Position numbers and translations under genes: made by a program
Notes under the pieces: model-generated
The model's database searches: none
What the model saw: the letters and a program-made list of their open reading frames with translations, nothing else
What the model was told of the DNA's origin: nothing
Part shown: piece after piece, positions 23,010 through 33,229 of the stretch
Layout: each line of letters begins with the position of its first letter
Position numbering within the stretch: position 1 is the stretch's first letter
Origin: Myxococcaceae bacterium
GTDB lineage: Bacteria > Myxococcota > Myxococcia > Myxococcales > Myxococcaceae
Length of the DNA stretch: 50,184 nt
Assembly (NCBI GenBank): GCA_016926755.1
Contig: JAFGNZ010000243.1
Span: 1-50,184, forward strand
Direction of reading: 5' to 3'

Positions 23010-24581
23010 TTACGAGGGGCGGGCCGCGGCGACGGGGGTGGGAGCCTCCGCCCCGGGAGGGAGCACCTGGGGCACGGTGGGCCAGACGGTGGGGTTGCGC
23101 CTGCCATCCTCGACACGCCGGGCCAGGTACGGCACGCAGCCCCGCGCCTCGAAGGCGCGCTTGAAGGCCGCGAAGCCCGCCCCGGCCTTCCACGCGTCCA
23201 TGGTGGCCAAACCCGCCTCGGGGCCGCACTGGGCCAGCATGTACTCCACCCAGGCCCAGCGGGCGGAGGTGGGACGTACCTCGGCGCGCCCCTTGAGCCC
23301 GCGCCGGAGCCGCTCCAGCCTCGCCTCCACCTCGCGGATGCCCGCGAAGGGCGCGCCGTCCAGCGGCGTGTTGCGCTTGGCCACGAAGGGGGCGATCCCC
23401 AGCGCCACGGGGATGATGCGAGACAGCTCGATCGTGAAGCGGATGAGCTCGTCGATGTCCGCGTCCTCTTCGTACGGCAGGCCGACGACGTTGTAGACCT
23501 TGAGCTGCCGGAGCCCCGCCGTCCGGGCGAAGTTCGCCGCGCGGAGGATCTGCTCCTCCGAGTGCTTGCGATCCACCAGATCACGCATCCGCTGGGAAGA
23601 GCCGTCCGCGGCCACGGTGAGGTGGGTGGCGCCGCCGCGGCGCAGGGTGTCCACCAGCTCCTGGGTGAGCCGATCCGCGCGCAGCGAGGACACCCCCACC
23701 TCGCGTCCCGAGTCCACGAGGGTGCGCAGCAGCTCCACGATGCGCGGGTGGTCCGTCACCGCCGCCCCCACCAGCCCCACCCGCCGGGCATTCTCCGGGA
23801 TGAGCGACAGCACCCGCTCGGGCGGCACCGTCCGCATGCCCCCGTTGGTGGTCCTCCGCATGACGCAGTAGTGACACCCACGGGAGCAGCCGCGCTCCGG
23901 CTCGATGAGGAACATCGAGCGCAGCTCGGTGTTTGGCGTGATGATCTGCGAGCGGGCGGGCAGCCGCCCGTCCGAGGCCTTGGAGACGAAGTAGCGCGCC
24001 CCACCTCGCCCGGGGACCCGGAAGCCGGGCGTGCGCGCCAGGTACGTCAGCAGCGCCTCGCGCTCCATGCTGGCGGCGGCCTCCAGCAGGGTGTGGATGA
24101 GCTCGTCCGACTCGCCCTGGACGAGCACGTCCACGAAGGGCTCCAGCGGGTCCGGATTCGAGAAGGTCAGCGGCCCTCCGGCCACGATGAGCGGCTGCCG
24201 CTCGGTCCGCTCCTCCCTCAGCAGGGGCAGCCCCGCCAGCTCCAGCATCGTGAAGAGCCCGGTCAGCTCCAGCTCATAGGCCACCGAGAAGGCCACCATG
24301 GGAAAGCCGGAGACAGGGGCCTCGGACTCGTAGGTGAGGAGCGGCGTCCGCGTGAGGCGCCAGGCCTCCACGTCATCCGGGAGGAAGGCCCGCTCGGCGG
24401 TAGCGCCGGGGTGGAGGTGGATCTCCCGGTAGATGGTCTGGTAGCCGAGCGAGCTCATCCCCACGTGGTAGGGACTTGGGTAGCAGAGGGCCACGCGGTA
24501 GGGCGCCTCCTTGCGGAGCGTGCCCTGCTCCTGGGCGAGCCGCGCGCGCATACCTTCGACGAGTGAGTACCTGCCCTCCAT
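23010..24581 (-). CDS. B12-binding-type radical SAM protein
   Basis: 523 residues from the ATG at 24581, which is preceded by GGAGGAG. The N-terminal 190 residues form a Rossmann-like B12-binding-type domain (RVALCYPSPYHVGMSSLGYQ, then LIVAGGPLTFSNPDPLEPF). The radical SAM core has Cys232-x3-Cys236-x2-Cys239 (CSRGCHYC) for the 4Fe-4S cluster, then GLVGAAVTDHPRI and the LKVYNVVGLPYE strand. Family close to the uncharacterised TIGR03960-type proteins that in many bacteria sit beside rplU and rpmA and may modify RNA; here the gene is about 18 kb from rplU. No carrier or maturation partner is adjacent. Modification target unknown. Confidence 0.85.
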   Translation of the reverse strand: MEGRYSLVEGMRARLAQEQGTLRKEAPYRVALCYPSPYHVGMSSLGYQTIYREIHLHPGATAERAFLPDDVEAWRLTRTPLLTYESEAPVSGFPMVAFSVAYELELTGLFTMLELAGLPLLREERTERQPLIVAGGPLTFSNPDPLEPFVDVLVQGESDELIHTLLEAAASMEREALLTYLARTPGFRVPGRGGARYFVSKASDGRLPARSQIITPNTELRSMFLIEPERGCSRGCHYCVMRRTTNGGMRTVPPERVLSLIPENARRVGLVGAAVTDHPRIVELLRTLVDSGREVGVSSLRADRLTQELVDTLRRGGATHLTVAADGSSQRMRDLVDRKHSEEQILRAANFARTAGLRQLKVYNVVGLPYEEDADIDELIRFTIELSRIIPVALGIAPFVAKRNTPLDGAPFAGIREVEARLERLRRGLKGRAEVRPTSARWAWVEYMLAQCGPEAGLATMDAWKAGAGFAAFKRAFEARGCVPYLARRVEDGRRNPTVWPTVPQVLPPGAEAPTPVAAARPS

Positions 24582-24617
24582 GCTCCTCCAGCGGCGATCC
24601 AATCCTCTTTAAACACC

Positions 24618-24663
24618 GCGGCCCCGAGCGGCCACTCCCGAGGGGGAGGGCAGCCGGGGCCGC
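24618..24663 (-). terminator. Terminator-like hairpin after the receptor-lipoprotein operon
   Basis: Perfect 9-base arms GCGGCCCCG (24618-24626) and CGGGGCCGC (24655-24663), with a smaller CTCCC/GGGAG hairpin in the loop. On the minus strand the stem is followed by GGTGTTTAAAG. It lies between the stop of the lipoprotein gene (24690) and the radical SAM start. Confidence 0.65.
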
Positions 24664-24689
24664 AGGAACGACGTCAGCCGTGGCTCAGC

Positions 24690-25394
24690 CTACTCCACGC
24701 CATCCTTGAAGGACGGGACGGGCTTTTCGAGCACGCAGAAGCCCAGGTCCTCATTGCACACCACCGCGAAGTCCGGGCTGATGCCGGAGCCCTCGCCGCA
24801 GGTCTCAAGGGGGTTTTTGTTATTCGGATCGGGATCGCAGCCCACCGCCGGCCACAGGGCCCGGACGGTGTACTGGAGCGAGCAGCCATCGCGGGTGATC
24901 GTCACGTCACCCGTGAGCTGCGTGCCAGGGGCCTTGGGAGACGCGAACACCTTCACGTTCGCGAACTGGTACGTGATGGAGGTCGCGTCCTCGGAGGCGC
25001 TCGCCGCGGCGTTCACCGTCGCCGGGGAGAAGTCCGTGGCGCCGCAGAACTCCTGGGCGTCCGGCTCCTCTGCCAGCGTTCCCACGGCCGTCTGCAGGTA
25101 CGGATCGCCCGGATCACGCGCGGCGCGCGAGGCCAGAGTCGCCGGACGCAGCGTCAGCCTGGACTGCCCCGCCGCATCCGGGTTGGTGTACTTGAAGACG
25201 CCGAGCAGCTCACCCACCATCTCGGCCTTGCAGCCGTCGGGGATGGTCTGCCCCTCCTTCAGGTCATACTTCGCCGCCCAGGAAGGCGAGTCCTGGGTGA
25301 TGCACCCTGCGCTGGGCTGGTCGAAGTTGCAGCCCGTCAGCAGCGCACCTGCGCCGAGAAGAACAGCAGCGCCAGAAACGATGTTCTTGATCAT
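24690..25394 (-). CDS. Lipoprotein downstream of the Oar-like receptor
   Basis: 234 residues. Signal peptide with lipobox L19-T20-G21-C22. The mature part has several Cys (for example CITQDSPSW, DGCKAEMVGELLG, FCGATDFSP, GCSLQ, GCDPDPNN, TCGEGSG, VCNEDLGFC), consistent with disulfides in the periplasm or at the surface. No catalytic motif recognised. It starts 34 bases after the TonB-dependent receptor ends and shares its strand and terminator, so it is probably a partner of the receptor, by analogy with surface lipoproteins of TonB transport operons. Homology not recognised. Confidence 0.7.
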   Translation of the reverse strand: MIKNIVSGAAVLLGAGALLTGCNFDQPSAGCITQDSPSWAAKYDLKEGQTIPDGCKAEMVGELLGVFKYTNPDAAGQSRLTLRPATLASRAARDPGDPYLQTAVGTLAEEPDAQEFCGATDFSPATVNAAASASEDATSITYQFANVKVFASPKAPGTQLTGDVTITRDGCSLQYTVRALWPAVGCDPDPNNKNPLETCGEGSGISPDFAVVCNEDLGFCVLEKPVPSFKDGVE

Positions 25395-25428
25395 GATTCT
25401 CTAGGTTCCTGTCGTTCGTGGCTGAGGC

Positions 25429-28400
25429 TTAGAAGGTGTACCGGACGCCGATGCGGAACTGCCGCGGCGCCTGGTACTGCGTCGGCTGCTTGAAGTTCGG
25501 GTTCACCTGGTCCTCCGTCAGGAAGACCTGATTCGCCCGGTCAAACTCCAGATCCCCGGTGTTGATCTGCACCTTGCCCGGCAGGTCCGCCGGCGTGCCG
25601 CCCTCGAGCGGGTAGATGGACTCGAAGGTGTAGGACTCGTCCACGCCCGTCGCGGTCTGGAAGTTGAACAGGTTGAACACGTCCAGGGTGAGCGACACCA
25701 CCTGATCCTTGCCGATACGGTAGTTCACACCCACGTTGGAGTCGATCACGTTGACCCACGGGGTGCGGCCGCCCGTACCACGCTGGAGGACGAACGCCTC
25801 ATCCTGCAGGTAGAGCGGGTGAGCGCCGTAGAAGTTGATCGGGTTACCCGAGTTGCCGCGGTAGGACACGCCCAGGCTGGCAGACAGCGCGTTGGTGATG
25901 TTGAACTCCTTGGCGCCGAACACCTTGACGGAGTGCGTCCGGTCATAGGGCAGCAGACCGGTGCGGTTGGGCAGCAGGCTGATCAGGTCGAAGTCCGAGA
26001 GGATGTTCGGATCGAGCTGGCCCGTCTCCGGACGGAACAGACCGGGGTAGTTACCGTACAGCCGCGACCAGGTGTAGCTCGCCTGGGCCAGCCAGCCGTC
26101 GGCGAAGGTGCGGTTCAGGTACAGGGTGACCGCGTTGTAGTTGCGCTCCGGCTTGGGGAAGTCCTTGGCGAAGCCCTCGTTCGGGTTGCCGAGGAAGTAG
26201 GTGTTGCCGTCGTCGCGGCTCATGTCCTCGATGACCGAGCCCATGTTGCGGAACGTGTAGGACGCACCGAAGCGGGTGTTGGCCAGCACCTCGTACTCGC
26301 CGCCCACCACCACTTCGTTGGAGGACTGGGGCTTGAGGTTCGGGTCAACCGGCTCGCTCTCCACCTTGCCGCCCAGGAAGAGGCGGTTCGGGTTGCGGCT
26401 GCCCTCCGACACGCGGGCCACGTACTGGTTGTCCGCGCAGCCGGTGCGCTGCCCCTCACGCGTGGAGGGATCGCAGCCATCGGTCCCCCCATCGGTGGAG
26501 GGGGCCACGCGGCGGGCCGCGTAGCGGCGCTCTGGCGGGAACGCGCGGTCCAGCATGTTGAGCGGCACCTGCTCATAGTACTTGGCGAAGTTGACGAAGA
26601 ACTTCATCCGGCCGTTGGCCAGCGGGTCGACGATGGCGCCCACGCGCGGCGACAGCTGGTTGCCGAGCACGAGGGCCAGCTGCCCGTCACCGCCGTACAT
26701 CGCCTGCACGTCGTAGCGCAGGCCCGCGTTCACCGTCACGCGGTTGGCGATGGACCAGCTGTCCTGCAGGAAGCCACCCACCGTGGTGCTCTTCGAGGTG
26801 GACTCCTGGACCAGCTGCACGGTCGGAGAGTCCGGAGCCGTCTGGTAGCCATAGCGGCGGGCGTCGAGCCAGCCGGAGGTGCCGCTGGGGATGCCCGTGT
26901 TGGTGCGCGGGTCGAAGAAACCACCCAGGTTGGTCTCCGAGAAGAACACGCCGCCGCCGTAGGCCTTGCGCTGCCCGTAGGAGAGGAACTCGGCGTCCAC
27001 ACCGGCCTTGAGCACGTGGGTGCCCAGCGCGTTGAGCAGGTAGGTGGCCTTGGCGTTGACCTGGTAGCGGTCCAGGTTGCCGTCGGTCAGCAGACCCGGG
27101 CCACCCAGGGCGTAGTTGCTCACCGGGCAGGCCTGCGCGATCTCACGCTCGCCGGTCACCGGATCCGGATCGCCGTACGGGATCTCGCAGTACTGCGCGG
27201 CGTTCGGGACATCCTCGAAGTAGGTGATCGGGCGCTCATTCACATAGAGCACGCGCGAGTAGCCGGCCAGGCCATCACCCAAGATGTCGCCCGGCTCGCT
27301 GCCGTCGACCGGCAGGGTAGAGGCCACCTGGTGGAAGTAGCCCGCGTTCACGTCGATGAGGACCTTCTTGTCCATGAAGGCGCCGGCGTACTTCAGGCCC
27401 ACCGCGGTGGTGCTCGCCAGGGTCTCCGTGATCCCGAAGTCACCCGGACGCGTCGTGACGGCCGCCGGGAGGCCGCCGCTGCGCGGATCGATGTTCAGCT
27501 TGCCCTCGCCGCCCGTGCTGGACGGGGTGCCGGTGATGGACAGCGACACGTTGTGATCCTGGTTGATCAGGTAGGTCAGCTTGCCCATGTACTGGAAGCT
27601 GCGCGAGTCCGCGAAGTAGGTGCGCTCGGCGCCGGGGATCGGCGTGAACTGCGCGCGGTCCTGCTCGTCGCGGACGACGTCGCCCGTGGCCGGGTCGATC
27701 TGGAAGGCGTTGATCCCGCGGGTGTGCGTGTAGCGGGTGAAGGACGGCGCGAAGCCGGCGAAGAACCACAGCTTGTCCTGGAGGATCGGACCGCCGAGGG
27801 TGGCACCGAAGTCACCCAGGTTCTTCAGCTGGTTGGTGCCGGAGATGACCGAGCCCTCGTTGATGACGAGCTTGCGGTCACCCTCTAAGGTGCCCGGGGT
27901 GATGTTGCCGAAGACCGAGCCGTGGAACTCGTTGGAGCCCGAGCGCGTCACCGCGTTGATGACGCCACCGGTGGAGCGACCGAACTCCGGCAGGTAGCCG
28001 CCCGTGACGACGTTCACGTCCTGGACGAACTCGATGGAGAGCGGGCTGGCGTTGATGCCGAAGGCCGGATCGTTGGTGGACAGGCCGTCCACCACGTAGC
28101 CGTTCTCGGGCGACGTCGCGCCGTTGATGGACACGCCGTACTGATCGTTCTGGGCGCCCGGAGCCAGCTCCGCGAGGCTCTCGAAGGAGCGAGCCGCGCC
28201 ACCCTTGCCGCCAGGGCGGTTCACGGCGATGCGGCGGATGAACTCCTGATCCACGTTCACGCCCGTGGTGGTGGAGCCCACGTCGATCGTCGGCGGGGTG
28301 GCGACGACCGCGATCTCCTCCGTGAAGGCCTCAGGCAGCAGCTCCACGTTCACGCGGATGGTGCGGTTGAGCCGCAGCTGGATGTCCGAGCGAGCGAAGG

Positions 28401-28686
28401 GCTTGAAGCCCTGGCTGTCGAACCGCAGGGTGTACACGCCCGGCGGCAGCTGGGGAATACGGTACTGGCCGCTGGCGTCTGATACCACCGTCTGCTCACC
28501 CTGTAGGTTGGGCGAGGTCGCGGTGACGACCACATCTGCTATCGGCGCCTTGTTGGCGCCAGGATCGGCATTGACGACCGTGCCGATGATGACGCTGCTT
28601 GATGACTGAGCCAAGGCCACTGACCCGAACAAAAGGCCAACAGCCAGCACAACTCCGGTTTCCCGGAGCACACGGGTTACTCTCAT
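25429..28686 (-). CDS. Oar-like TonB-dependent receptor
   Basis: 1085 residues from the ATG at 28686 (GGAGGGG 8 bases upstream). The open frame continues 5' to about 29664, but that part is antisense to tonB and not coding. Signal peptide cleaved after A26 (VALA/QSSSS). Residues about 30-125 form a carboxypeptidase-like regulatory beta-sandwich (VIIGTVVNAD, GQYRIPQLPPGVYTLRFDSQG), then a plug (about 140-300) and a 22-strand type barrel ending in the aromatic RQFRIGVRYTF. The layout matches M. xanthus Oar, which is needed for secretion of protease PopC. The typical plug TonB box is not obvious to me. Divergent from tonB-exbB-exbD-exbD, with promoters in the shared intergenic region. Ligand unknown. 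Confidence 0.88.
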   Translation of the reverse strand: MRVTRVLRETGVVLAVGLLFGSVALAQSSSSVIIGTVVNADPGANKAPIADVVVTATSPNLQGEQTVVSDASGQYRIPQLPPGVYTLRFDSQGFKPFARSDIQLRLNRTIRVNVELLPEAFTEEIAVVATPPTIDVGSTTTGVNVDQEFIRRIAVNRPGGKGGAARSFESLAELAPGAQNDQYGVSINGATSPENGYVVDGLSTNDPAFGINASPLSIEFVQDVNVVTGGYLPEFGRSTGGVINAVTRSGSNEFHGSVFGNITPGTLEGDRKLVINEGSVISGTNQLKNLGDFGATLGGPILQDKLWFFAGFAPSFTRYTHTRGINAFQIDPATGDVVRDEQDRAQFTPIPGAERTYFADSRSFQYMGKLTYLINQDHNVSLSITGTPSSTGGEGKLNIDPRSGGLPAAVTTRPGDFGITETLASTTAVGLKYAGAFMDKKVLIDVNAGYFHQVASTLPVDGSEPGDILGDGLAGYSRVLYVNERPITYFEDVPNAAQYCEIPYGDPDPVTGEREIAQACPVSNYALGGPGLLTDGNLDRYQVNAKATYLLNALGTHVLKAGVDAEFLSYGQRKAYGGGVFFSETNLGGFFDPRTNTGIPSGTSGWLDARRYGYQTAPDSPTVQLVQESTSKSTTVGGFLQDSWSIANRVTVNAGLRYDVQAMYGGDGQLALVLGNQLSPRVGAIVDPLANGRMKFFVNFAKYYEQVPLNMLDRAFPPERRYAARRVAPSTDGGTDGCDPSTREGQRTGCADNQYVARVSEGSRNPNRLFLGGKVESEPVDPNLKPQSSNEVVVGGEYEVLANTRFGASYTFRNMGSVIEDMSRDDGNTYFLGNPNEGFAKDFPKPERNYNAVTLYLNRTFADGWLAQASYTWSRLYGNYPGLFRPETGQLDPNILSDFDLISLLPNRTGLLPYDRTHSVKVFGAKEFNITNALSASLGVSYRGNSGNPINFYGAHPLYLQDEAFVLQRGTGGRTPWVNVIDSNVGVNYRIGKDQVVSLTLDVFNLFNFQTATGVDESYTFESIYPLEGGTPADLPGKVQINTGDLEFDRANQVFLTEDQVNPNFKQPTQYQAPRQFRIGVRYTF

Positions 28687-28732
28687 GCCTGACCCCTCCA
28701 AGGTGGGCGTATGCAACCAAAAATGGCTGGGG

Positions 28733-28760
28733 AAAATATCTGAGGTCAGCAAGTTGTCAA
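28733..28760 (-). promoter_or_regulatory. Predicted strong promoter of the Oar-like receptor
   Basis: Minus strand: perfect -35 TTGACA (28760-28755), 16-base spacer, -10 TATTTT (28738-28733). Transcription would start near 28726, some 40 bases before the ATG. Confidence 0.6.
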
Positions 28761-28766
28761 TAGACC

Positions 28767-28782
28767 GTTGCTTTTTGGCAAC
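28767..28782. promoter_or_regulatory. Small dyad just upstream of the receptor promoter
   Basis: GTTGC-6 bases-GCAAC; GCAACCA also occurs on the plus strand near 28714. Located beside the -35 box of the receptor and within the divergent region, so it could be a regulator binding site. Only 5 bases per arm, so chance is possible. Confidence 0.25.
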
Positions 28783-28830
28783 CAGTGGGGCATTGGCCGG
28801 TCCCGTCCGTTGACTCTGCCCCCCCCTCGC

Positions 28831-28858
28831 TTGAACCCGGACTGCATTTCTGTATTGT
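28831..28858 (+). promoter_or_regulatory. Predicted promoter of tonB-exbB-exbD-exbD
   Basis: TTGAAC (28831-28836), 16-base spacer, TATTGT (28853-28858), about 62 bases before the tonB ATG. Weaker than the receptor promoter but in the right place. Confidence 0.45.
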
Positions 28859-28920
28859 GGCACGCCTTTGATCCGGCAGGGCGTGACGGGTTGCCCACTG
28901 GTGTAGAGGAGTAATCGCGC

Positions 28921-29637
28921 ATGTTCGACTCTGTTCTTGACCGCGGAGCGGCTCCCAGGTCCCGGTTCGGCACCGGGACGGTGATCTCGGTGCTGCTGCA
29001 CGTGGGCCTCTTCGGTCTGGCGGTGTGGCTGTCCACGCGGCCGCCCCCCGTGGAGGAGAAGGAGATCGAGGTCACCTTCAAGGCCGCCATGGCGCCTCCG
29101 CCGCCGCCTCCACCTCCTCCGCCTCCTCCGGCCGCCAAGCCGAAGCCCAAGAAGGTCAAGAAGGAGTTCGTGGCGCCCAAGGAGATCCCCCAGGTCAAGC
29201 CTCCCGAGCAGGAGCCCACCCCCGAGCCCGAGCCCACCGAAGAGGAAGTGGAGACCGGCGAGGGCGTCGAAGGCGGCGTGGTGGGGGGCGTGGTGGGTGG
29301 CGTGCTCGGCGGAGTGCTCGGCGGCCAGGTGGGCAGCACCGGTACGGACGTGCTCCCGTTCGGCGCGGGCATGACGCGCCCGGAGAAGCTCTCCGGCCCC
29401 GCTCCCCAATATAGTCGCGAGGCGCTCGAGGCCCGCGTCCAGGGCCTGATGATCGTGAAGTGCGTCATCACCACCGAGGGCAACGTGGAGAAGTGCCGCA
29501 TCATCAAGCCCCTGCCCCACATGGAGCAGGCAGTGCTGGACGCGCTGTACGCGCAGCGGTACAAGCCGGTCACCTTCCAGGGACGGCCGGTCCAGGTGGA
29601 CTACACCTTCAACGTCAGGCTGAGCCTGCCGCGGTAG
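28921..29637 (+). CDS. tonB: TonB energy-transducing protein
   Basis: 238 residues. One N-terminal transmembrane helix (about 18-37) with the S23-x3-H27 motif that contacts ExbB/ExbD. Then an uninterrupted poly-Pro run (59-70), a Lys/Pro/Glu linker (AKPKPKKVKKEF, PEQEPTPEPEPT), a Gly/Val segment of GGV and GGVL units (117-135) and the TonB C-terminal domain (about 155-238; LEARVQGLMIVKCVITTEG, MEQAVLDALYAQRYKPVTFQG). It spans the periplasm to the receptor TonB box. First gene of the operon and divergent from the Oar-like receptor, suggesting it serves that receptor in particular. Confidence 0.93.
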   Translation: MFDSVLDRGAAPRSRFGTGTVISVLLHVGLFGLAVWLSTRPPPVEEKEIEVTFKAAMAPPPPPPPPPPPPAAKPKPKKVKKEFVAPKEIPQVKPPEQEPTPEPEPTEEEVETGEGVEGGVVGGVVGGVLGGVLGGQVGSTGTDVLPFGAGMTRPEKLSGPAPQYSREALEARVQGLMIVKCVITTEGNVEKCRIIKPLPHMEQAVLDALYAQRYKPVTFQGRPVQVDYTFNVRLSLPR

Positions 29638-29710
29638 TACGCGGACGGCCTCGGCCCTTGTCATAACCTGCCGTTACCCCCCGCGCTCGAGGAGGAGCGC
29701 TCATAATACC

Positions 29711-30394
29711 ATGCAATTCACACTGGCGGATATCTGGGCGCACACGGGCCTCTTCGCCCGCTTCATCATCTTCACCCTGGGCTTCATGTCGGTCGCCTCG
29801 CTGGTCGTCATGGCGGAGCGGATGGTGGTCTTCCGTAAGACGCGAGCCGACTCGAGGACCTTCGCGTCGAAGATGGGGGCCATCCTCGCCAAGGGGGACC
29901 TGACCACCGCGGCCAACACGAACCTGGGCAAGGACGTGGGTCACCTGGGGCGCGTGATCAACTCGGGTCTGACGGCGTACCGCATCAGCCCCAGCAACAA
30001 GGAAGTCGCTGTGGAGTCCGTGGCGCGCGCGCTGGAGCGTCAGGCCCAGCGTGAGGTCCAGAGCCTCAAGCGCGGCCTGGGCGTGCTGGCCACGGTGGGC
30101 TCGACGGCGCCGTTCGTCGGTCTGCTCGGCACCACGATGGGTATCGTGAACGCCTTCCAGCAGATGGCCGTGGCGGGCTCGGGTGGTCTGGCCACCATCT
30201 CCGCCGGTATCGCCGAGGCGCTCATCACCACGGCGTTCGGTCTGCTCGTGGCGATCCCCGCGGTGATGGCCTACAACTTCTTCCAGGGCTGGGTGGATGC
30301 GCGCTCGGTGGACATCTCCGAGTCGTCCAACGAGTTCCTGGACGTAGTGGCCCGGCACCTGGGCGGTGGCGCGTCCCACTCCCAGGTGGGCTGA
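29711..30394 (+). CDS. exbB: ExbB/TolQ-type proton-channel protein
   Basis: 227 residues, three membrane helices (about 12-35, 120-145, 160-190). Couples the proton motive force to TonB movement, with ExbD. The conserved MotA/TolQ/ExbB core reads KRGLGVLATVGSTAPFVGLLGTTMGIVNAFQQMA and EALITTAFGLLVAIPAVMAYNFF. Tol-specific features (a long cytosolic loop) are not evident, so ExbB is preferred because of the context with tonB. 73 bases separate it from tonB; a GAGGAG motif is 13 bases upstream of the ATG, farther than usual. Confidence 0.93.
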   Translation: MQFTLADIWAHTGLFARFIIFTLGFMSVASLVVMAERMVVFRKTRADSRTFASKMGAILAKGDLTTAANTNLGKDVGHLGRVINSGLTAYRISPSNKEVAVESVARALERQAQREVQSLKRGLGVLATVGSTAPFVGLLGTTMGIVNAFQQMAVAGSGGLATISAGIAEALITTAFGLLVAIPAVMAYNFFQGWVDARSVDISESSNEFLDVVARHLGGGASHSQVG

Positions 30395-30415
30395 GCACAG
30401 CCTTCCTAGCCAGCC

Positions 30416-30469
30416 AGTAGCCCGTCTCGGCGTTGGCGGGGATCTCCCCTTCACCCGAGGCGGGCTGCT
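30416..30469 (+). promoter_or_regulatory. Long RNA hairpin between exbB and the first exbD
   Basis: Fifteen consecutive base pairs (two of them G-U) between 30416-30430 and 30455-30469, enclosing a nested GGGGATCTCCCC dyad at 30438-30449. It begins about 20 bases after exbB stops and ends about 34 bases before the exbD ATG. Not followed by a U-run, so not a classical terminator; an RNA stabiliser, processing site or stoichiometry control is suggested. Confidence 0.55.
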
Positions 30470-30502
30470 TCACTCAAGTCACCTCGAGCTCCAGGTACAG
30501 CG

Positions 30503-30922
30503 ATGGGAATGGCAACAGGTCCCAGTGGTGGGATCAAGAACGAGATCAACGTCACGCCGCTGGTGGACGTGGTGCTGGTGCTGCTCATCATCTTCATGGT
30601 GATCACGCCCATGCTCCAGCGCGGCAAGTCGGTGACGCTGCCCAAGGCGCAGAACATCGAGAAGGAGAAGAAGGGCGCTGACCAGGACCCGCTGATCCTC
30701 TCGGTCACTCCGGACAAGAAGATGTTCCTGGAGAATGACGAGTTCGACGCCGCGGGCCTGGAGAACAAGATCCGCGAGGAGCTCGAGGCCAAGCCGGGGC
30801 GGCGGATCCTCCTCAAGGGCGACATGTCGCTGAACGTCATCGACGTGCGCAAGGCGATGGACATCGCCCGCAAGGGCAAGGCCAAGAGCATCGCGCTCGG
30901 CGTCGAGGAGCTGAAGGAATAG
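30503..30922 (+). CDS. exbD: ExbD/TolR-type protein 1
   Basis: 139 residues. One membrane helix near residues 22-42 (VDVVLVLLIIFMV), with the conserved Asp in NVTPLVDVV that takes part in proton transfer; a Met/Pro segment (ITPMLQRGKSVTLP) leads to the periplasmic domain. C terminus IALGVEEL. Two bases separate its stop from the second exbD. It shares with that gene a block of 54 identical bases out of 56 covering the membrane helix. ExbD forms a dimer in the ExbB pentamer; two different ExbD proteins could form a heterodimer. Confidence 0.92.
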   Translation: MGMATGPSGGIKNEINVTPLVDVVLVLLIIFMVITPMLQRGKSVTLPKAQNIEKEKKGADQDPLILSVTPDKKMFLENDEFDAAGLENKIREELEAKPGRRILLKGDMSLNVIDVRKAMDIARKGKAKSIALGVEELKE

Positions 30923-31034
30923 CCATGGCTTACAAGAAACGTCAGTGGGTCAAGCCCCAGACTCCGCCCAACTCGGACATCAACGTCACGCCGCTGGTGG
31001 ACGTGGTGCTCGTGCTCCTCATCATCTTCATGGT
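30545..31034 (+). repeat. Near-identical 56-base blocks in the two exbD genes
   Basis: 30545-30600 and 30979-31034 are identical at 54 of 56 positions (differences are two third-position changes in Val/Leu codons). They encode the INVTPLVDVVLVLLIIFMV core of both ExbD copies; the genes are much more divergent on either side. Confidence 0.85.
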
Positions 31035-31419
31035 GCTCACGCCGCTGCTCGAGAAGGACATCGAGGTGCGCGTGCCGGAGACGGAGGTGGAGGCCACGCC
31101 TCCCGACACGAACGATCAGCTGGTGGTGCAGCTGTCCGAGAACGGCGACATCAAGATCAACGCCGAGGAGATGCCCAACCTGGAGGAGTTCATCAACCGG
31201 CTGAAGCGGATGCTGGCGGCGAAGGCCCGGGAAGAGCGGGTCGTCTTCTTCATGGCTGACGACAAGGCGAACTACGGCAAGCTCATTGGCGTGATGGACG
31301 GCGCCAAGTCGGCCGGCGCCGTCGTGCTCGGCATGACGACCGAGGAGCTGCCGCAGGGCGCGGTGCTCCCGGGTACCGAGGGCGCAGCGCCGGTTCCCGA
31401 GGCCCCTCCGGCCCCGTAG
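30925..31419 (+). CDS. exbD: ExbD/TolR-type protein 2
   Basis: 164 residues. Same membrane core as the first ExbD (INVTPLVDVVLVLLIIFMV, then LTPLLEKDIEVRVPET) and the conserved Asp; the periplasmic domain differs and ends in a Pro/Ala-rich tail (EGAAPVPEAPPAP). The start MAYKKRQWVKPQTPPN is a cytosolic basic segment. Gene order tonB-exbB-exbD-exbD with two ExbD paralogues is known from other Proteobacteria-type and myxobacterial TonB systems. Ends 20 bases before the terminator arm. Confidence 0.92.
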   Translation: MAYKKRQWVKPQTPPNSDINVTPLVDVVLVLLIIFMVLTPLLEKDIEVRVPETEVEATPPDTNDQLVVQLSENGDIKINAEEMPNLEEFINRLKRMLAAKAREERVVFFMADDKANYGKLIGVMDGAKSAGAVVLGMTTEELPQGAVLPGTEGAAPVPEAPPAP

Positions 31420-31439
31420 CGCCACCTCGGCGTCCCCCC

Positions 31440-31485
31440 AGGAGCTCGTCTGGCCCCACGTGGCCGGCGAGCTCCTTGTTTTTTG
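31440..31485 (+). terminator. Rho-independent terminator of tonB-exbB-exbD-exbD
   Basis: Nine-base stem aggagctcg (31440-31448) / cgagctcct (31468-31476) with an inner GGCC/GGCC pair, followed by TTGTTTTTTG. Textbook terminator in a GC-rich genome, placed 20 bases after the second exbD. The frame open upstream of comM runs through it, so that extension is not coding. Confidence 0.85.
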
Positions 31486-31603: not shown

Positions 31604-33229
31604 ATGCTGGCGAGGGTGAGGTCGGGCGCGCTGATGGGCATCGACGCGGTGGTGGTGGAGTGCGAGGTGGACATGGCCCTGGGGCTGCCCTACTTCAACG
31701 TCGTGGGGTTGCCCGACGGGGCGGTGCGCGAGTCGAAGGTGCGGGTCGTCTCGGCGCTGAAGAACACGGGCTTCGAGCTGCCCCAGAAGCGCATCACGGT
31801 GAACCTGGCCCCGGCGGACATCCGCAAGGAGGGGGCCGCCTTCGAGCTCCCCATCGCGCTGGGCGTGCTGGCGGCGGCGCGCTTGATGGAGGAGGAGCCG
31901 CTGGGGCGCTACCTCTTCGGAGGGGAGCTGTCGCTGGATGGGTGGATCAAGCCCATCAAGGGCGTCCTGCCGCTGGCCGTGGCCGCCAGGAATGGCGGCT
32001 TCCAGGGCGTCATGGTGCCCTCGGCGAACGCGGCCGAGGCGGCCCTGGTGGAGGGCATCCAGGTGCTCCCGGTGAGCCACCTGCGCGCCGCCGTCGATCA
32101 CCTCACCGGCGTCCAGCTCATCCCCCCCTTCCAGCGCGCACCTGGGGCGGCCGTGGCGATGCGGGGCCCGCCGTCGCTCGACATGGCGGACGTGCGCGGG
32201 CAGCCCGAGCTCAAGCTGGCCCTGGAGTTGGCGGCCGCTGGTGGCCACAACGTGCTCATGTGCGGCCCTCCTGGCTCGGGCAAGACGATGCTGGCCCAGA
32301 GGCTGCCGGGGATCCTGCCGGCCATGACGTTCACCGAGGCGCTGGAGGTGACGAAGATCTACTCGGTGCTCGGGCTGCTGGGAGAGGACCAGGCGCTGAT
32401 GCGCGAGCGCCCGTTCCGCTCGCCGCACCACACCATCTCGGACGCGGGGCTCGTGGGAGGAGGCCCGGCGGCGCGCCCCGGGGAGCTGTCCATGGCCCAC
32501 CACGGGGTGCTGTTCCTGGATGAGCTGCCGGAGTTCCGCAAGAACGTCCTGGAGGTGCTGCGCCAGCCCATGGAGGAAGGCCTCATCCACCTGGCGCGCG
32601 CCAACCAGAACGTCACCTACCCCTGCCGGGTGATGCTGGTGGCGGCGATGAACCCCTGCCCTTGCGGCTACTTCAACGTCCCCGGCCACACCTGCAAGTG
32701 CCAGGAGCACCGCATCTTCGACTACCACGCGCGGGTGAGCGGCCCGCTGCTGGATCGCATCGACATCACGCTGCAGACGCGCCCGGTGGAGTACCACCAG
32801 ATCGCCCGGGGCAGCGCCGAAGAGCCGCCCAGCAGCTACTACCGGGACCGGGTGGAGGCCGCGCGCGAGCGCCAGCGGGCCCGCTTCCGCGACGAGCCAG
32901 GAGTGCACTGCAATGCCCAGATGCCGCCCCGGCTCCTGCATCGCTATTGCGCGCTGAGCGCTCGGGCCGAGCAGATGCTGGAGCGTGCCGTGCGCCACCA
33001 TGGCCTGTCCGCCCGCGCGCACGACCGCATCCTCAAGCTCGCCCTCACCCGCGCGGACCTGGAGGCGCACCCCCGTATCGAGGACACGGACATGCACATC
33101 GCCATCGACTGCCGCATTCTCGACCGCCGAGGGTGGCTCCACGCGAACACCTACGGCACCTCGCGGCCCGATGCCTTCTCCCGGCTGCTGCGGCCCGACG
33201 CGCGCTCACGAGCTCCCGAGGAGCCTTGA
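31604..33229 (+). CDS. comM: YifB/ComM family Mg-chelatase-like AAA+ protein
   Basis: 541 residues from the ATG at 31604 (GGGAGGG 5 bases before). ComM-like helicases promote branch migration in natural transformation and recombination. N-terminal Lon-protease-like domain about 1-170 (ALMGIDAVVVECEVDMALGLPYFNVVGLPDGAVRES), then the AAA+ module with Walker A GPPGSGKT (221-228), Walker B LFLDELPEF and an arginine-rich sensor region (RPFRSPHHTISDAGLVGGG). A Cys cluster (MNPCPCGYF, HTCKCQEH) in the AAA+ part may bind zinc. C-terminal helices include ARAHDRILKLALTRADLE. The final stretch after about residue 505 (WLHANTYG...) has no family match that I know. Lies after the tonB operon terminator, so it is transcribed separately. 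Confidence 0.92.
   Translation: MLARVRSGALMGIDAVVVECEVDMALGLPYFNVVGLPDGAVRESKVRVVSALKNTGFELPQKRITVNLAPADIRKEGAAFELPIALGVLAAARLMEEEPLGRYLFGGELSLDGWIKPIKGVLPLAVAARNGGFQGVMVPSANAAEAALVEGIQVLPVSHLRAAVDHLTGVQLIPPFQRAPGAAVAMRGPPSLDMADVRGQPELKLALELAAAGGHNVLMCGPPGSGKTMLAQRLPGILPAMTFTEALEVTKIYSVLGLLGEDQALMRERPFRSPHHTISDAGLVGGGPAARPGELSMAHHGVLFLDELPEFRKNVLEVLRQPMEEGLIHLARANQNVTYPCRVMLVAAMNPCPCGYFNVPGHTCKCQEHRIFDYHARVSGPLLDRIDITLQTRPVEYHQIARGSAEEPPSSYYRDRVEAARERQRARFRDEPGVHCNAQMPPRLLHRYCALSARAEQMLERAVRHHGLSARAHDRILKLALTRADLEAHPRIEDTDMHIAIDCRILDRRGWLHANTYGTSRPDAFSRLLRPDARSRAPEEP

Follow-up and report, generated by a model that had tools for sequence, protein, structure and literature searches.

We analyzed a 50,184-nucleotide stretch of contig JAFGNZ010000243.1 (assembly GCA_016926755.1) from a Myxococcaceae bacterium, hereafter the window, in which genes for a TonB-dependent receptor and a lipoprotein lie back to back with a set of TonB energy genes. 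Open reading frames (ORFs), translations, and domain searches bore out all six genes that the first-pass annotation had placed here, with their order and orientations, between positions 24690 and 31419. On the minus strand, the stop codon of an Oar-type receptor gene (25429..28686, 1085 amino acids) is separated by 34 base pairs (bp) from the start of a gene for an MlpA-type lipoprotein (24690..25394, 234 amino acids). Across a divergent gap of 234 bp, the plus strand carries tonB (28921..29637; PF03544), exbB (29711..30394; PF01618), and two exbD genes in succession (30503..30922 and 30925..31419; both PF02472).

By synteny, the window locus is orthologous to the oar-mlpA locus of Myxococcus xanthus with its divergent tonB1-exbB1-exbD1-exbD2 genes; we assign it to oar/Ton-oar because synteny, the 234-bp gap, and the numbering of the TonB box all agree. 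Scanning named genomes yielded 40 loci; in 20 of them (L155-L174) the match spans the full receptor, at 67-71% identity. Seventeen of these 20, including M. xanthus AM003, have the entire order comM, exbD, exbD, exbB, tonB, oar, mlpA, radical SAM, and the other three (L168, L170, and L174) are cut off by the ends of their contigs. The outermost genes in this order are conserved flanks outside the system, recognized by domain search and synteny, and correspond in the window to a radical SAM protein (23010..24602, minus strand) and a ComM/YifB-type Mg-chelatase ATPase (31607..33229, plus strand, start approximate). One complete myxobacterial oar locus (L166, BNCN01000002.1) is labelled Comamonas sp. 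KCTC 72670; the record is probably mislabelled.

We read the M. xanthus side in strain AM003, which shares with the window the order, the flanks, the TonB box position, the downstream MlpA (MXAN_1451), and an oar-tonB gap of exactly 234 bp. The AM003 receptor has 1062 amino acids and its TonB has 251; the window receptor is 69% and the window lipoprotein about 45% identical to the AM003 counterparts. The published 249 bp that separate the oar start from the tonB1 deletion point (PMC6434023) equal the gap plus 15 bp and therefore fit the MXAN_1450 locus. Likewise, E118 and I122, the residues mutated in the published Oar TonB-box experiment (PMC6434023), fall at exactly those positions of the AM003 receptor, in the box EVVEIVG. 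The same paper gives three M. xanthus receptors that have a full set of Ton genes (MXAN_0272, 0821, and 1450) and TonB fragments ending at 250 for TonB1 and at 269 and 266 for the other two. Paralogy to MXAN_0272 or 0821 was considered and rejected, since gap length, TonB size (251 amino acids), and TonB-box numbering fit 1450. The earlier description of an Oar-type receptor with adjacent Ton genes thus stands, with a named orthologue, and the window tonB is, by synteny, the orthologue of TonB1.

Judged by its domains, the receptor is an Oar-type TonB-dependent transporter. It begins with a CarboxypepD_reg N-terminal extension (NTE; residues 33-116, 28339..28590, minus strand), matched by PF13620 at 5.5e-17, and the barrel models PF00593 and PF25183 score above their cutoffs. 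The plug model PF07715 was weak, lying below cutoff for the receptor alone (E 0.0036) and reaching 24.6 bits together with frame neighbours in the contig search. This NTE-plug-barrel architecture is the one published for M. xanthus Oar (PMC6434023). The predicted TonB box, EEIAVVA (residues 123-129, 28300..28320, minus strand), lies at the Oar position, after the NTE and before the plug, and aligns with the E118-I122 box of M. xanthus Oar. Orthologues in near relatives are 67-75% identical to the receptor; in nine orthologues, the NTE and plug (window positions 27937-28599) are far better conserved, at 75-91%, than the barrel (25432-27936), at 66-70%.

An Oar front end, composed of signal peptide, NTE, TonB-box stretch, and the first half of the plug, also occurs on a VWA/YfbK-type protein in Corallococcus, Myxococcus, and Pyxidicoccus (L119:6123-8618, minus strand; L120, L175-L177, L179, and L180; G051:C6:145122-147617). 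These proteins are 60-73% identical to the window receptor and gave no barrel match in a Pfam run made on L119 only. In the window genome, the matches listed (three of four) cover the VWA part only. Such a protein might compete for TonB in soluble form or act as a regulator.

The lipoprotein has a clean lipobox, LLTG-C, with the predicted lipid on Cys22, and eight further cysteines. We identify it by sequence and position as the orthologue of MXAN_1451, which PMC3222651 (Table 4) gives as the putative lipoprotein MlpA, detected in the outer membrane through four peptides in mass spectrometry; the first-pass annotation had left this protein unassigned. Orthologous MlpA proteins are 42-52% identical to that of the window. 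Among 28 family members, eight cysteine columns are invariant, the lipid Cys included; 22 members have nine cysteines in total and six have more. The lipid Cys is often followed by D/N-x-E/D-Q-P, with P27 in at least 90% of the 28 members, and this stretch may act as a signal for sorting or belong to the fold.

The window lipoprotein had no Pfam or NCBIfam match, the 28 members had no Pfam match under E 0.03, and the family profile matched nothing among PDB sequences. An AlphaFold2 (AF2) model with a predicted local distance difference test score (pLDDT) of 88 consists mostly of antiparallel strands. Foldseek returned no match to this model below 1e-3, and the best rows of VIA-align were Cap15, avidins, and designed barrels (Z 8-9, best Z 9.0), followed by fHbp, BF2706, and BT2261 (Z ~7), with SusD and TbpB absent among the best fold matches listed. 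We take these matches as a common barrel arrangement only. A search of open-licence papers found no publication that assigns Oar and MlpA a common role; a 1993 report is said to deal with MlpA and development.

Receptor and lipoprotein are co-encoded, conserved, and co-inherited. The window genome encodes four Oar-type receptors of full length, each with one of the genome's four lipoprotein homologues directly behind it; each of three genus-g6 genomes, by comparison, has a single receptor match at E 1e-60. The best 12 candidates per genome, from the 18 family genomes in a 60-genome sample of the order, comprised at least 36 full-length receptors, and the lipoprotein follows 35 of the 36. We excluded four matches (G051, G040, G059, and G046) that cover receptor residues within about 15-239 only, as they belong to VWA fusion proteins (G051 by Pfam, the others by place). 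Viewed from the lipoprotein side, a receptor ends just ahead in all 80 loci examined (67 distinct places), which were returned by three profile searches, plus 18 picked from phylum-scan matches, and represent part of all matches. The first-pass annotation had proposed a homology search for the lipoprotein next to Oar in relatives, and there it is anything but absent. Trees of 28 receptor-lipoprotein pairs agree in their main groups (distance r 0.84, reached in none of 2000 permutations, uncorrected for shared species history) and share 13 of 25 splits.

A profile search of the contigs gave 15 TonB_C matches in the genome, and the short contigs (10-17 kb) that carry the other three receptor-lipoprotein pairs gave no match to ton or exb; among the genome's four pairs, energy genes were seen beside a pair only at the window locus. 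Because of these further TonB_C matches and pairs, calling the energy module private, as the first-pass annotation did, is too strong, and its picture of a self-contained unit was not borne out. On contigs C273, C321, and C145 of G000, TonB C-terminal and receptor plug matches fall in equally long frames that share contig and strand, which suggests TonB-receptor fusion proteins, possibly of the kind of MxcH, the myxochelin receptor.

The first-pass annotation had also given each side its own promoter and terminator-like hairpin. A promoter-like TTGACA-N16-TATTTT (28733..28760, minus strand), found by the promoter scan, precedes the receptor-lipoprotein operon, and TTGAAC-N16-TATTGT (28831..28858, plus strand), found by eye and under the scan threshold, precedes the ton operon. 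The scan count is no better than chance (1 site versus 0.5 in shuffles), and what supports both sites is that they are largely conserved in 8 aligned orthologues. The published tonB1 deletion abolishes oar expression (PMC6434023), despite the conserved promoter-like site ~47-74 bp 5' of the receptor start. After the ton operon, a hairpin with a T-rich tail (31440-31476, within the element set at 31440..31485, plus strand; z -3.4, 1 of 200 shuffles folding as well) is a convincing terminator-like element. The strong hairpin behind the lipoprotein gene (24616..24665, minus strand; z -2.3, 4 of 200 shuffles) lacks a T run and is only a partial candidate. A terminator scan gave 3 sites against a shuffle mean of 3.2, neither hairpin being among them.

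Beyond the family, the place of the lipoprotein behind the receptor persists with other occupants. The MlpA profile (E 1e-5) matched 95 of 195 phylum genomes, comprising 92 of the 96 family genomes and three outside the family (G001, G025, and G183). In other families of the order, we examined 20 receptor loci, at about 35-41% identity to the window receptor except for two receptors that matched in pieces and scored higher; exb genes are divergent in 16 of the 20. Among the 15 lipoproteins in this slot, one (L118, the same place as L195) is MlpA-like, 12, from genomes of family f5, share a CDPY, CDPF, or CNPF start, and two, from family f7, are long with a Big_5 domain. Pfam Big_5 also matched one of five f5 lipoproteins tested. 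An f5 model of middling confidence (pLDDT 72) gave fibronectin/immunoglobulin (Ig)-like matches at Z ~8-9. The f5 proteins were tried as distant MlpA relatives and rejected, because the profile comparison aligned signal peptides only. With 15 of 20 slots occupied, mostly by unrelated lipoproteins, the lipoprotein's place is better conserved than its sequence.

These counts bear on whether the lipoprotein is merely carried along in the operon, with a function unrelated to Oar. The comM and radical SAM flanks are also conserved at the locus without a known functional link, which suits such a passenger. However, paralogous pairs elsewhere in the genomes keep receptor and lipoprotein together and do not keep these flanks. 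Moreover, a lipoprotein lies within 90 bp behind 15 of the 20 distant receptors, compared with 2 of 425 ORF ends in the same loci, many of them not real genes, and 0 of 137 likely genes when the control was repeated with a filter on third-position guanine-plus-cytosine content. We regard an unrelated function as very improbable.

Oar of M. xanthus is a TonB-dependent transporter reported for PopC secretion (PMC6434023). The first-pass annotation had linked the locus to this secretion, a link strengthened by the oar orthology and by a PopC-like protease in the window genome (80% identity to the query). Our query, from G034, was an S8 protease of 472 residues with no signal peptide, encoded near 0.26 Mb with a small ORF behind; its size and lack of a signal peptide fit PopC as described in PMC6434023. 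At E 1e-60, a PopC-like protease was found in 64 of the 96 family genomes, all of which also have MlpA, while 28 of the 96 have MlpA (E 1e-5) with no PopC match. Synteny of the unit was confirmed in four of these 28 (L094, L096, L098, and L099). The genome behind L099 (G022), at 2.7 Mb, keeps the whole unit and its flanks, with no PopC match and six plug-domain matches only. Since the PopC-like protease occurs in 64 and the lipoprotein in 92 of the 96 family genomes, PopC export is probably a later use of the Oar system, and MlpA's job may be older than the role in PopC secretion.

The receptor, lipoprotein, and Ton genes might nevertheless constitute one protein-export device, with MlpA serving, for example, as an exit gate for PopC or as an efficiency factor. 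The position of mlpA right behind oar and the PopC-like gene in this genome would suit such a device, as would the observation that E. coli given Oar and PopC secretes PopC in a Ton-dependent manner with its own Ton proteins (PMC6434023). Without MlpA, E. coli released only about 0.2% of its PopC into the supernatant (PMC6434023, Fig. 7 legend), compared with a 24-h secretion signal unit of ~3% of PopC in M. xanthus (PMC6434023, Fig. 4 legend), measured in a different assay. Yet Oar and PopC were the only additions that E. coli needed (PMC6434023), so MlpA is not essential for export, contrary to the idea that the lipoprotein is an essential part of an export device; a helping role may exist, since secretion reached about 0.2% only. 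PopC export is also unlikely to be MlpA's general function, given the 28 family genomes that have MlpA without a PopC match. We know of no protein client for the paralogous and distant receptor-lipoprotein pairs. Taken together, a dedicated export device is unlikely. In the PMC6434023 main text, the word "lipoprotein" occurs twice, apparently in titles of the reference list, so Oar's neighbour was apparently not examined there.

MlpA could instead act from the periplasmic side, assisting Oar in its biogenesis, its stability, or its placement at the pole, or tuning the contact between plug and TonB. It is common for beta-barrel proteins to be assisted by lipoprotein partners, and the adjacency of receptor and lipoprotein is constant. 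Polar placement of Oar depends on the Ton-oar genes (PMC6434023), but in E. coli Oar becomes enriched in the outer membrane even though MlpA is absent (PMC6434023). The unrelated lipoproteins in the slot of other lineages fit a substrate-facing role better than a chaperone, and the lower identity of orthologous MlpA proteins relative to the receptor barrel (42-52% versus 66-70%) is as expected for surface parts, although this is weak evidence. A periplasmic helper is possible, if doubtful.

The explanation we favor, with a probability of about 0.5, is a transporter-lipoprotein pair that would work like SusCD, the Bacteroides glycan importers, without being a member of that group, with MlpA in substrate capture, as a lid, or in docking. 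Oar, a TonB-dependent outer membrane transporter, would be powered through its TonB box by TonB-ExbB-ExbD, and MlpA would be its standing partner in this membrane, most likely facing outward. There MlpA would capture, cap, or dock the Oar substrate, as SusD does for SusC, without kinship to SusD. The original client would be not PopC but another substrate, probably imported; PopC secretion would have been added in part of the family, using Oar and Ton without a strict need for MlpA.

Several points weigh against this explanation. Contact between Oar and MlpA, surface exposure of MlpA, and an imported substrate are what we infer, and the fold matches of MlpA are generic barrels, as noted above. 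One full-length family receptor (G031:C10:77229-80429) has no MlpA behind it and no ton or exb matches nearby; outside the family, L100, L101, L102, and L249 have no lipoprotein beside the receptor, and L250 has only a doubtful candidate that fails the 90-bp count. In the paired trees, 12 of 25 splits differ, and co-inheritance of adjacent genes is not proof of interaction. The name of the PopC query is deduced from size, domain, and lack of a signal peptide, and the PopC and MlpA thresholds differ (E 1e-60 and 1e-5). Finally, the low PopC yield in E. coli means that MlpA may matter for efficiency.

The role of the Oar locus in protein secretion was known from a relative. New here is that, by gene position, the lipoprotein is the receptor's companion in family genomes and that the same slot is filled by a lipoprotein, mostly of unrelated kind, in other families; its nearly constant place right behind the transporter suggests an overlooked partner. 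A conserved partner, with a distribution wider than that of PopC, bears on the direction of Oar transport and on other cargo.

Among known receptor-lipoprotein systems, TbpA-TbpB of Neisseria likewise combines a receptor with a lipoprotein, one that has beta-barrel domains. The fHbp barrel is among the generic fold matches of MlpA at Z about 7.5, which is not above the range of common arrangements; the 28 MlpA members had no Pfam match to the TbpB family, and the profile had no TbpB match among PDB sequences. BT2261, a lipoprotein solved in the SusCD complex BT2261-2264 (5fq6 and 3h3i), shows a weak likeness to the MlpA fold (Z 7.1, root-mean-square deviation 4.0-4.4 over 121-129 residues), at 8-9% identity and with a Z within the range of chance arrangements.

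In SusC-SusD, too, the TonB receptor bears a carboxypeptidase-regulatory-like NTE, and the SusC gene is followed by an outer membrane lipoprotein gene. The window locus has this arrangement, an NTE-bearing TonB receptor directly followed by a lipoprotein gene, and SusC has been named as having the Oar domain architecture (PMC6434023, discussion). The five Pfam families that any of the 28 MlpA members matched up to E 1 included no SusD model, and SusC/RagA models were not among the six NCBIfam matches up to E 0.01, in a library that presumably holds SusC models. Unlike SusCD, the window locus has a small lipoprotein with nine cysteines and a barrel-like model, its own adjoining Ton genes, and no glycan-degradation gene among the neighbours read. 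It is conceivable, though quite unlikely as a whole, that the Oar-type transporters of Myxococcota form a separate receptor-lipoprotein class with a constant slot whose occupant is swapped among unrelated folds (nine-Cys barrel-like in one family, Ig/fibronectin-like in others). The lipoprotein would then set client and direction, and the same TonB-driven barrel would import one substrate and, where PopC is present, export PopC when MlpA lets go. If true, transporters with such an exchangeable slot would stand next to SusCD as a second receptor-lipoprotein lineage.

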